IMG/VR virus record: IMGVR_UViG_3300042547_000164
Coordinates: 1 to 20,228 of that record
Length of the DNA stretch: 20,228 nucleotides
Direction: 5' to 3' (one strand)
Source: a virus
The notes beneath the pieces were generated by a model, which did no database searches, had not been told where the DNA came from, and saw only the letters and a program-made list of their open reading frames with translations. Both the position numbers and the translations under genes were made by a program. Shown here piece after piece: positions 6,654 through 14,910 of the stretch. Each line of letters begins with the position of its first letter. Positions within the stretch are counted from its first letter, which is position 1.

Positions 6654-6824
6654 TTAATCTCCAGATTTACGCCATTTACCCATTGCAGACCAGTAGCGCC
6701 TTTGGCGTACCGTCATATTTTGTAAGTCAGTGAGCGTAAAGCCCTTGTAAACCGTGGCGATCAGATCGTATTCCCAGTATATATGAGTTAGGTTAACCAA
6801 ATAAAAGGGATGCCCAATCAAGCG
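6654..6824 (-). CDS. Second reading frame of tail assembly chaperone (probable frameshift product)
   Basis: The 143 bases between the 260-residue gene and the tape measure are not empty. The +1 frame (equivalently -2) is open from just after a TAG at 6825-6827 to the TAA at 6654-6656. It ends in about 45 very protein-like residues: T-H-I-Y-W-E-Y-D-L-I-A-T-V-Y-K-G-F, then a T-V-R-Q-R-R-Y-W segment and a basic C-terminus. There is no convincing ribosome site or ATG before residue M31 of the tail. The likely expression route is a ribosomal frameshift near TCC CTT TTA TTT GGT TAA at 6793-6810, giving a fusion of about 306 residues. This mirrors lambda G/GT-type chaperones, always just upstream of the tape measure. 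The slip site is inferred. Confidence 0.6.
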   Translation of the reverse strand, partial: RLIGHPFYLVNLTHIYWEYDLIATVYKGFTLTDLQNMTVRQRRYWSAMGKWRKSGD

Positions 6825-7575
6825 CTAGAACCATTGGTTCACCACACGTGGCGCATTGGGCATTCACCTCCCCTACGACAGGTCCTGGCTGGTTGTCCAG
6901 CAGGAGTTTGACAAGGTTGGCTCGGTCTTTTAGTCCCAGTCCTTTTGCCCAGTTTTCAGCATTAGTAATGTGAGCGCTGCTGACACAACGGGCAATCATA
7001 AACGTATTTTGTTCTGCGGTGCTCTTTGCCTTCTTGGCTACGAACTGACTATCTCCGCCTGTAGGAAGTCGGAACTCCACTTTAGAACCATCTACCAATG
7101 TACCTATTAATGGTTTGTGTACATCCATGTCTGTTTTTTTGGTTTCAAACTCATCCATAGAAACAACCACATCGTTAGATGCCGAGCATGAACCGCAAGT
7201 AACTTGGTACTCACGGTTTTTTCCATAGGTTGCTTCAACTACACCTAAGAACAATAGGTCACGGTCACCAATAATTAGGTTGTCAATAACTGATGGGTTA
7301 TCAGCAATAATGATAGAACCAATAGAAATTACGGCACGCTTTAGTAGCGTTGACATATACTCTGCGTAAACAAGACTGCGGTTATCTAAAGAAGCCAAAG
7401 CCTCTTCATCAAAGCCATTTAATTCACGAACAATAGCCGTAGTATCCCACGACTCAAGTTCAGTATTAAAAATACCCCGAATGAGTTCAACCACCGTATT
7501 TGGCGCTGGTTTCATTTCAGGTATGGCATCTGCTAGTGCAGAGTTAATAGAGTCAGCCTGTTGCTTTGCGTCCAT
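6793..7575 (-). CDS. T4-baseplate-like/tail assembly chaperone protein with two CxxC motifs
   Basis: A 260-residue protein preceded by a good AGGAG site and placed between tube and tape measure. Residues about 40-140 resemble the T4 baseplate (gp26/gp51-like) family: a helix V-Y-A-E-Y-M-S-T-L-L-K-R, then I-I-G-D-R-D-L-L-F-L and Y-G-K-N-R-E-Y-Q-V-T-C-G-S-C. Cysteines at 127/130 and 241/244 form two CxxC knuckles that could bind one metal ion. Its gene position and the overlapping out-of-frame extension at its 3' end are those of the tape-measure chaperone pair. It may do either job or both. I am confident that it is a tail assembly or baseplate factor, less sure of which. Confidence 0.7.
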   Translation of the reverse strand: MDAKQQADSINSALADAIPEMKPAPNTVVELIRGIFNTELESWDTTAIVRELNGFDEEALASLDNRSLVYAEYMSTLLKRAVISIGSIIIADNPSVIDNLIIGDRDLLFLGVVEATYGKNREYQVTCGSCSASNDVVVSMDEFETKKTDMDVHKPLIGTLVDGSKVEFRLPTGGDSQFVAKKAKSTAEQNTFMIARCVSSAHITNAENWAKGLGLKDRANLVKLLLDNQPGPVVGEVNAQCATCGEPMVLALDWASLLFG

Positions 7576-12164: not shown

Positions 12165-12478
12165 TGGGCTGCTTTTGCTTGTAGCAATGCTCGCTCATAA
12201 GGCAACCAATGCTGGTGTACGTACATCGTGTAGGCATGGGTGGCATTTATGTATGAGTGAACACTGCTATTAGGGAGGATCATGTTTTCTTTAAAGCCCT
12301 CTTTAAGGTTATCTACGGCCTCAGTGATGCCATCTAAAATGTGGGCTTTAAGTGTTTGTAAGAACTCTGGATTTTGTTCAGTGATATCAAAGAGGTCATT
12401 GTGGTCAGAAATGGTGTAAAAGTTATCCCCTGACTGAATCAAAGGACCATTACTTGTTTTGATGATTTTGTATGTCAT
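12161..12478 (-). CDS. Hypothetical protein, 105 residues
   Basis: I chose the ATG at 12476-12478; an alternative TTG six codons earlier would run into the upstream zinc-protein gene. The sequence starts with a beta hairpin-like segment (Y-K-I-I-K-T-S-N-G-P-L-I-Q-S-G-D-N-F-Y-T-I). It continues with helices (F-L-Q-T-L-K-A-H-I-L-D-G-I-T-E-A-V) and an aromatic/His-rich stretch (H-A-Y-T-M-Y-V-H-Q-H-W). I do not recognise the family. It lies between the small zinc protein and a 51-residue gene with which it shares an ATGA overlap, forming a compact cluster of three small genes between the fibre genes and the connectors. Confidence 0.6.
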   Translation of the reverse strand: MTYKIIKTSNGPLIQSGDNFYTISDHNDLFDITEQNPEFLQTLKAHILDGITEAVDNLKEGFKENMILPNSSVHSYINATHAYTMYVHQHWLPYERALLQAKAAQ

Positions 12479-12647: not shown

Positions 12648-13724
12648 CTATACCGTGTAATCAAAGCGGTCTACTTGGGTTGACTGAGCACCTGCTGTAG
12701 TTGGGGACAATATAATACCGTGTTTTGTAGCAAAGGCTGCTGGTGTTCCAGAAGCAGAGCCGCTATTCGTAAGACCATTACGTAAGCCAGACCACGTAAT
12801 AGCAGAACCATTAGTAGTTACTGTTAGAGAAGTAAAATAAATAGGAGTAGTTTGCTCTGCTCCATGTGATTGTGTGGCAACAACAGACAGTACCCCTGCT
12901 TCTTTTTTAATTAATTTAAAACTATGGGTATAAGTTGTTATGGTTTGAGTTGTAGCCGTTGCTGCATAGTTACAGGAGTACGGGTTACATGCGTAAGGGT
13001 TGCAAGGGCCGCAGTTGCAAGAAGTGTACGTAGTGTTGCCTGTGTATGATGAAGAACTAGGGGGAACAACTGTGCATGGGTAACAGTTGTATGAAACACC
13101 AATGCCAAACATGCCTACTTCCCACCGACAGGCTTGGCACCCACCGTCACCGCAGTTAAAAGCACCACCAGGGGATTGAGGGCTTGAACCACCACAGTTA
13201 TAGCCATCACATGAGCACCCGCCTGGGTTATAAGTACTACAGGTGTATACGTTGTTACCGTCACAAGCGCCAGACCCACCACTAGGGCAAGAGCCACCAG
13301 AGCAACATGAACCACAACAAGTTTGATAACAAGTTTGATAACAAGTATTTATACAAGTAGTTCCAGAGAGAGTGCCACCACTAGGGCATGTGTAGACAGT
13401 TCCCGATGCTTGAGTAGTGACAACATCACTAACTACTGCCCACCAATTGTTAGCGTCCGCTACCCAAAAAGCAACGCCAAACCCAGCACCAGACCCACCA
13501 TTAAATGCTGTAACAGTTACATCTTGTCGTAATGACTCAATCGCAGCAAGTGGGTAAGAAACAGCCGTAGTAGCGCTGTATGCGGTGTTGGAAGCAATGT
13601 CCCAATCACCTACGATGTCTACCCAATCAAGATTAGTGGTTGCAAGGGATGCTGCATTAGCACGATTAAAGGTGTCACTAAATGATGGTAACCACCGTGA
13701 GGCTTCAACGATTCCTGGAATCAT
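12648..13724 (-). CDS. Fibre/decoration protein: jelly-roll-like domain with a cysteine-rich insertion
   Basis: A 358-residue protein placed 4 nt after the fibre gene. Residues about 15-105 resemble concanavalin/LamG-like phage domains: D-T-F-N-R-A-N-A-A-S-L, then W-V-D-I-V-G-D-W-D-I-A-S-N-T-A and F-G-V-A-F-W-V-A-D-A-N-N-W-W-A-V. The matching C-terminal strands resume at about 262 (Y-T-H-S-F-K-L-I-K-K) and close with a G-I-I-L...F-D-Y-T-V end. Between them, residues 113-251 hold 24 cysteines, all those in the protein, including C-Y-Q-T-C-Y-Q-T-C-C and C-N-P-Y-A-C-N-P-Y-S-C, in a Gly/Ser/Pro/Tyr setting. I infer a surface module inserted in a loop, either disulfide-stabilised or metal-binding. 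It may decorate the capsid or neck and contact cells; no enzyme motif is seen. Confidence 0.65.
   Translation of the reverse strand: MIPGIVEASRWLPSFSDTFNRANAASLATTNLDWVDIVGDWDIASNTAYSATTAVSYPLAAIESLRQDVTVTAFNGGSGAGFGVAFWVADANNWWAVVSDVVTTQASGTVYTCPSGGTLSGTTCINTCYQTCYQTCCGSCCSGGSCPSGGSGACDGNNVYTCSTYNPGGCSCDGYNCGGSSPQSPGGAFNCGDGGCQACRWEVGMFGIGVSYNCYPCTVVPPSSSSYTGNTTYTSCNCGPCNPYACNPYSCNYAATATTQTITTYTHSFKLIKKEAGVLSVVATQSHGAEQTTPIYFTSLTVTTNGSAITWSGLRNGLTNSGSASGTPAAFATKHGIILSPTTAGAQSTQVDRFDYTV
13318..13345 (-). repeat. 12-bp tandem direct repeat within the cysteine-rich insertion
   Basis: On the plus strand the unit CAAGTTTGATAA occurs twice in tandem, followed by a CAAG start of a third. It encodes the C-Y-Q-T repeat of the cysteine-rich insertion. 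This suggests local duplication or slippage as a way the module grows or shrinks. Confidence 0.7.
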
Positions 13725-13728
13725 AGCC

Positions 13729-14910
13729 TTATGCGATCAGGTTGCCGATAAGCACCCACGTGTTTGCGCCACGGTTAATGAGTGTTGCTCCAGCCCATTG
13801 ACCTTTTAATTTCCTTCGGTTACCTTCAGCGTTAACCGTTACGCCTGTGTCACCTTGCACAGTAACCGTGTAAGCGCTGTTGCTATTAGTTGCAAGCAAG
13901 TCAATTCGGTCACCGTCTGTAAAACCAGTACCAGGAACTGTAACTGTCATAGAAGCGGCAGTTGGGTTTAATTCAATTAACTTACCAAGGTCACCTACAC
14001 CTAATGTGTAGTTGTTACTGGTAATTGGAGCCACAGCACGGGTGGAGTTAAACCCTGCACGGGGCGCTCCTGTAGCCAGTTTTGCAACTGTTATAGAAGC
14101 ATCTGTAATCTGAGTAGAGCCTACGGTTCCTGCATTTAAAGCAGAACCTGGGATGCTCGTAAGAGAAGCACCAGAGCCACTGAAAGCAGTAGCCGTGATT
14201 GTGCCTGCGGTAAAGTTACCACTGGCATCACGCACAACCAAGTTGTTAGCAGTGTTTGCGGAAGCCATAGCAACGTAGGTTGCCAAGTTGGTCCATGAAC
14301 CCGCAGCGGTCTTTACATAAATCTGTGATTGCCCTGTGTTTGAAGGGCTTGTTGTATTTACGTAAGTATCACCAACAGCGCCGATACTTCCAGAAGGTGC
14401 TCCCGAGGCAACACGACTTAGTGAGGACGAAGCAAAGGCTCGCTTATCAACAAGTAGTTGAGTTGTGTATGTGGTGTTGAAGGTGTTCTTTACGTAGACG
14501 GCGTACAGAGGAATCTGTGTGGCATTGAGTGTAGGGAACACAGGGTTTGTAGCGCTATTGGTTCCTTGAACAACATCAAATTGAAAAGTACCGCTGTTGT
14601 TATACGCAACAATAACGTCAAAGCGTGTGTCGCTGCTATTTGCAGCAGCAGGGACAACTACAGTGCCACCTGTGATAGTTCCATAGGTGTTATCAATGCG
14701 AACCTCTACAGTGCTTAAAGCAACGTTAAGGTAAGCAGGCGTGGCGTTACCAGCAGCACTTGCTACTGATGTAATGTTTCCGCCACTAATTACACCATGT
14801 CGGTGATCGCCAATACTGGAGAAGTCAAGAGAGTCTGGCTCTGACTGATCTAATGAGGCAATGTTCCCAAGCCCAAAATCAGTTGCGTTGGGGACTGTAA
14901 AGCCTGCCAT
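13729..14910 (-). CDS. Fibre-like virion protein (head fibre or receptor-binding candidate)
   Basis: A 393-residue Thr/Ser/Ala/Gly-rich protein. The N-terminus contains D-F-S-S-I-G-D-H-R-H-G-V-I-S-G-G, a pattern seen near the start of many phage fibre and appendage proteins. Residues about 220-275 have the fibre shaft motif N-N-L-V-V-R-D-A-S-G-N-F-T-A-G-T-I followed by a short F-S-G-S-G-A-S-L-T repeat. The C-terminal roughly 110 residues form a beta-rich tip ending with N-T-W-V-L-I-G-N-L. No endosialidase, chaperone or enzymatic motif is visible. Its location between the capsid protein and the neck, away from the baseplate, favours a head- or neck-attached fibre rather than the main tail fibre. 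The fibre nature is fairly sure, the attachment site inferred. Confidence 0.7.
   Translation of the reverse strand: MAGFTVPNATDFGLGNIASLDQSEPDSLDFSSIGDHRHGVISGGNITSVASAAGNATPAYLNVALSTVEVRIDNTYGTITGGTVVVPAAANSSDTRFDVIVAYNNSGTFQFDVVQGTNSATNPVFPTLNATQIPLYAVYVKNTFNTTYTTQLLVDKRAFASSSLSRVASGAPSGSIGAVGDTYVNTTSPSNTGQSQIYVKTAAGSWTNLATYVAMASANTANNLVVRDASGNFTAGTITATAFSGSGASLTSIPGSALNAGTVGSTQITDASITVAKLATGAPRAGFNSTRAVAPITSNNYTLGVGDLGKLIELNPTAASMTVTVPGTGFTDGDRIDLLATNSNSAYTVTVQGDTGVTVNAEGNRRKLKGQWAGATLINRGANTWVLIGNLIA

Follow-up and report, generated by a model that had tools for sequence, protein, structure and literature searches.

The locus and its cysteine-rich protein

The window analysed here, meaning the whole stretch of DNA, is a virus record of 20,228 bases with matches to tail sheath, baseplate-wedge and major head proteins. 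The window head protein shares 59% identity with its counterpart in Streptomyces phage BRock, so that an actinobacterial host is plausible, if not shown. The following features were delineated around an adhesin-like gene:

12648..13724, minus strand: adhesin-like protein, whole (ORF of 358 residues)
13389..13724, minus strand: N-terminal half, predicted ConA-like lectin domain (residues 1–112), from AF2 pLDDT and the CBM66 alignment
13389..13448, minus strand: predicted outgoing long ribbon beta-strand (residues 93–112), an AF2 strand with pLDDT about 90; its role as a stalk is inferred
13353..13388, minus strand: basal Cys hairpin CPSGGTLSGTTC (residues 113–124), both cysteines conserved in a 17-sequence alignment
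13302..13355, minus strand: arm A, (C-Y-x-T)n type, CINTCYQTCYQTCCGSCC (residues 124–141), from the sequence repeat
13020..13301, minus strand: putative hypervariable Cys-rich knob between the arms (residues 142–235), with low pLDDT and variable in relatives
12972..13019, minus strand: arm B, (C-N-P-Y-x)n type, CNCGPCNPYACNPYSC (residues 236–251), from the sequence repeat
12900..12959, minus strand: predicted returning long ribbon beta-strand (residues 256–275), an AF2 strand with pLDDT above 90
12648..12971, minus strand: C-terminal half, predicted ConA-like lectin domain (residues 252–358) plus stop, from AF2 and structure alignment
13729..14910, minus strand: upstream protein of 393 residues, probable fibre partner, with a C-terminal domain (about residues 258–393) that is shared with other loci

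The 358-residue protein contains 24 cysteines, all of them at residues 113–251 (nt 12972–13388) and none elsewhere, and the probability of such clustering into one 139-residue stretch by chance is about 8e-9; the window's remaining main ORFs contain 0–5 cysteines. Translation of the ORF thus bears out the initial annotation, which had placed every cysteine in this segment and had reported the repeats CYQTCYQTC and CNPYACNPYSC, both of which we found in the protein. That annotation had also conceded that an assembly error or a frameshift would undo its reading; such an artefact is ruled out by dozens of independent contigs with homologues, in which the same frame is open and the Cys-rich loop lies at the same position. 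Elsewhere in the window, positions 6793–7575 encode a protein with two CxxC pairs (CGSC and CATC), which may simply be a structural protein of ordinary zinc-ribbon-like type.

The C-terminal domain of the 393-residue protein also occurs shortly upstream of genes for the Cys module described below in unlike phages (L001, L088, L090, L092, L093 and L105), and is possibly a fibre attachment or trimerisation unit. In L083 and L092, the proteins immediately upstream have matches among tail-fibre PHROGs; around other carriers, neighbouring proteins were matched to PHROGs for tail fibres and collagen-like fibres. At one further locus (L015, ORF starting at 12394) a Gly-rich multi-domain protein sits at the gene position of the adhesin, which is what one would expect if the fibre-tip gene were exchangeable; the locus seems to swap tip domains that are unrelated to one another.

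Carrier fold

The 358-residue protein has no match in Pfam up to E 1 (including none to Gly_rich_2) and none in PHROGs up to E 0.1. An AF2 model was built with 17 relatives in the alignment, in which the flanks of the Cys segment gave block-mean pLDDT values mostly of 82–95 (from residue 11), with lower values at residues 1–10 (47) and 21–30 (65); residues 133–244 fell below 50 and no confident knob structure was obtained. The best Foldseek matches to this model were lectin-like domains, none of them reaching E 0.001. On re-alignment of the Foldseek candidates, CBM66 (4b1m) gave Z 17.2 with rmsd 2.5 over 151 residues (model residues 16..358), and legume lectins gave Z about 13; residues 690–876 of the Douge central fibre protein gp20 (PDB 8ZDP) aligned to the model at Z 16.3, with both flanks covered.

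The model of the flanks, together with the structural matches to CBM66 and Douge, supports a carrier in which both flanks form one predicted ConA-like lectin domain, much as first proposed (a jelly-roll-like domain interrupted by the segment); sugar binding is inferred, with no binding data. In the same model, the Cys segment would be inserted into a single loop of the lectin domain, where a long beta-ribbon ends. Of the two basal cysteines, C113 is invariant and C124 is at least 90% conserved in the 17-sequence alignment.

Cysteine number in relatives

A profile scan for relatives of the carrier yielded 80 loci, and the relatives read have 4 to 46 cysteines in the stretch following an FWVxDxNNWW motif. 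With truncated ORFs left out and loops clustered at 80% identity, the loop cysteine count was even in 41/41 clusters (range 4 to 46; p = 4.5e-13), as it was in 50/50 clusters at 95% identity and 27/27 at 60%. No cysteine occurred in the stretch of 80 residues preceding the loop in the carrier relatives of this set, and neither empty loops nor odd counts were seen among the relatives read. As a control, other ORFs from the relatives’ loci had even counts in 102/171 cases (60%); measured against that null, 41/41 has p about 8e-10.

The simplest reading that fits this parity is that every loop cysteine may be disulfide-paired, with pairs gained or lost together, although the disulfide chemistry itself is inferred from counts in sequences. 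Because the number is even in all 41 clusters, disulfide pairing is favoured over four-cysteine metal sites, and the observed counts include 6, 10, 14, 18 and 22, none a multiple of four. The disulfide-bonded knob and the metal-binding module, originally offered as alternatives, have accordingly parted company: the former is strongly favoured and the latter has lost ground.

Variation of the loop

Among 61 close pairs, mean identity was 92% and 86% in the two flanks and 69% in the loop, where it went down to 35%; the loop is hypervariable relative to the lectin core. This variation extends beyond substitutions alone to changes in length and in cysteine pairs, the number of cysteines among close relatives differing in even steps, by two or four (10/12, 10/6).

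A recurrent two-arm element

Part of the Cys segment belongs to an element with two arms, (C-Y-x-T)n and (C-N-P-Y-x)n, either of which may come first. A search for the insert among environmental phage proteins, suggested at the outset, found two-arm repeats in unrelated viral carriers: scans of viral contigs with DNA patterns for CYQTCYQTC and CNPYxCNPY retrieved two-arm proteins, and the untruncated IMG/VR matches to CYQTCYQTC all carry both repeat types. Distinct matches with both arms numbered 23, or 22 once one partial duplicate was dropped, and a scan of viral contigs for CYxTCYxTCYxTC retrieved no further two-arm protein. The viral carriers are ConA-like, Gly-rich (L001, L090, L093, L105) or a combination of FN3 and Gly-rich (L088, L092, L097, L109); L001 matches Pfam Gly_rich_2, and L092 has only a weak match to fn3. 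In L105, on the minus strand, an in-frame TAA lies between the arms of the Gly-rich carrier and reflects either a genuine truncation or an error in sequencing.

Bacteria carry the element too. Scanning 84,980 species genomes for CNPYxCNPY gave 37 stretches, seven of which are long ORFs with both arms (L267, L274, L277, L285, L295, L299 and L300); the remainder, being short, off-frame or without a second arm, were set aside. L277 has a T9SS sorting tail, a feature typical of Bacteroidota, and L300 combines a prepilin-type start with a bacterial surface Ig-like domain. The contig of L277 was binned as Saccharibacteria despite its T9SS tail and is probably mis-binned. The bacterial pattern looks sporadic, with 1/395 genomes (the starting one) and 0/289 in the two classes sampled. 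The initial annotation was right about the Cys repeats and did not see that, in part of the segment, they make up a module of two arms that recurs in unrelated carriers and in bacteria.

The distance between the arms ranges from a 5-residue tip in L277 to about 280 residues in L267. In several proteins the arms have equal numbers of cysteines: 13:13 (L300), 9:9 (L102), 6:6 (L295 and L267) and 5:5 (L277). Over 17 representatives the arm counts correlate (r = 0.88, permutation p 0.0008); without the two longest, L300 and L102, the correlation is not significant (p 0.17). The arms of the window protein are short and degenerate, with about 4 versus 3–5 cysteines. Some Gly-rich carriers have one cysteine outside the module (L001 has 17 in total, 16 of them in the module), so that in such carriers parity holds for the module only.

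No entry in Pfam, NCBIfam, PHROGs or the PDB covers the two-arm element, and no description of such a Cys repeat was found in the libraries and open literature searched. A PDB sequence search with the module found no homologue, and the carrier profile gave a single chance-level defensin match. Against cultured phages, tblastn with the window protein and L083 as queries gave no matches, and the module gave weak matches only, several of them to proteins annotated as pentapeptide-repeat proteins; the plasmid search likewise gave weak matches only. Modelled in isolation with AF2, the module had a mean pLDDT of 46 and a helical CYxT arm, a confidence too low for use.

We consider it an even bet that this is an undescribed recurrent element, in which complementary Cys arms of period 4 and 5, in either order and 5 to about 280 residues apart, are zipped by a disulfide ladder and used by unrelated phages and bacteria to close off and display a variable loop or domain outside the cell. 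The connectivity of the zipper is inferred.

Proposed mechanism and alternatives

We propose that the locus encodes a lectin adhesin of a myovirus tail-fibre tip bearing a disulfide-laddered stalk and a hypervariable receptor-binding knob, a reading that we hold to be fairly probable, with pairing, structure and receptor inferred and not shown. On this view the 358-residue protein is probably the adhesin at the tip of the tail fibre; judged by its head protein, the myovirus has BRock as its nearest cultured relative. One loop of the lectin domain would extend as a two-stranded beta-ribbon and end in the hypervariable Cys-rich knob, all loop cysteines being disulfide-paired by bonds that would form once the virion is outside the reducing cytoplasm. 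Near the base, the (CYxT)n and (CNPYx)n arms would run antiparallel and be cross-linked rung by rung as a disulfide zipper; by closing the loop, they would leave the intervening sequence free to vary as a receptor-binding surface.

The predicted carrier fold, the even cysteine number, the hypervariability of the loop and the recurrence of the two arms in unrelated carriers are computed results. Disulfide as opposed to other pairing chemistry, arm-to-arm connectivity, post-lysis oxidation and receptor binding are inferences from them. Host attachment, a possibility raised from the first, gains support from the lectin-like fold, the fibre-like neighbour genes and the loop hypervariability, without being directly shown. 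Points that count against this reading are the absence of a confident knob or module structure from AF2, the dependence of the arm-count correlation on L300 and L102, the short and degenerate arms of the window protein, the single cysteine outside the module in some Gly-rich carriers, and the lack of a thioredoxin (PF00085) gene in four relative records, which bears on the route of oxidation.

The Cys loop could instead merely stabilise the fibre tip or act as a spacer in it, without a role in recognition, its variation being neutral drift. The receptor is not known, and the element occurs also in bacterial proteins of unlike architecture, both of which would suit a purely structural function; yet in close relatives the loop changes far more rapidly than the lectin core, always at the same place and with parity kept, whereas drift alone would be expected to give the odd counts and empty loops that were not seen among the relatives read. 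We regard this explanation as unlikely.

Another candidate is a metallothionein-like knob, in which Cys clusters would bind zinc or form Fe-S centres in the reducing cytoplasm and so stabilise the loop. Metal-stabilised phage fibre tips are known, for example the histidine-coordinated iron in T4 fibre tips, and the very regular Cx3C spacing and the synthesis of the protein in the cytoplasm are compatible with such a knob. However, metal clusters tolerate odd numbers of cysteines, and neither the unbroken parity nor the many counts not divisible by four would be expected of them; the bacterial carriers, moreover, are exported, as judged from the T9SS tail and from the prepilin start with its surface Ig-like domain. 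Taken together, these points make the metal knob improbable.

Diversification by a diversity-generating retroelement (DGR), as in Mtd of phage BPP-1, a DGR target and receptor-binding phage protein whose surface is hypervariable, would account for a hypervariable region in a phage adhesin but is scarcely credible here, given that the fold differs from that of Mtd, that the variation includes length and Cys-pair changes and not substitutions alone, and that no reverse transcriptase (PF00078) was found in five relative records, four of them of 95–98 kb (the window record being a fragment of 20 kb), in a search whose control run found PF00078 in 3/14 known genomes.

Comparison with known systems

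The receptor-binding surfaces known in phages take the form of protein loops, lectin sites and DGR-variable surfaces. The disulfide-laddered adhesin that we favour is closest in fold (Z 16–17) and in probable placement at the fibre tip to the tip of Douge gp20 and other CBM66-type domains, from which the window protein differs in sequence (about 14–16% identity) and in having one loop expanded to about 140 residues with 24 cysteines. The C-terminal domain of the mycobacteriophage Douge fibre tip binds mycobacterial surface glycans (PMC13033339).

Hypervariable recognition loops on a constant scaffold at the fibre tip, as in the window protein, are also found in the gp38 adhesins of T2-type phages, S16 and PP01 (PMC12892980). 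The gp38 scaffold is a polyglycine sandwich, whereas the window carrier has a predicted lectin fold with no Gly-rich sandwich (the L001 carrier does match Gly_rich_2), and the loops of PP01 gp38 are short and not described as Cys-rich (PMC12892980).

The proposed loop has an analogue in the bovine ultralong CDR-H3, in which a beta-ribbon stalk rises from a beta-sandwich domain and ends in a disulfide-bonded knob with variable cysteine number and pattern (PMC5994613). The antibody loop is unrelated in sequence and organism, has no two-arm Cys repeat and varies by somatic mutation, whereas the phage loop has been diversified over phage evolution. Hypervariable phage-adhesin loops (gp38, PMC12892980) and disulfide stalk-and-knob loops (cow antibodies, PMC5994613) are thus known already; no description of a disulfide stalk-and-knob combined with a phage lectin-type adhesin was found in the libraries and open literature searched. 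If our reading is true, the locus encodes a phage equivalent of the ultralong CDR of cows, and a virion protein made in the cytoplasm relies on many extracellular disulfides. Since the two-arm repeat is also found in surface proteins of bacteria, it may represent a general means of stapling a protein hairpin.

Further two-armed loops

By eye only, other two-armed Cys loops with different repeats were noted on the ConA-like carrier in L447 (46 cysteines), L455 and L451, which suggests that the design, rather than the exact motif, may recur. The arms of L455 have periods of 11 and about 12, with 5 versus 5 cysteines, and those of L447 are period-10 runs, one GNCATYSTVP-like and the other YPCNATNAAA-like.
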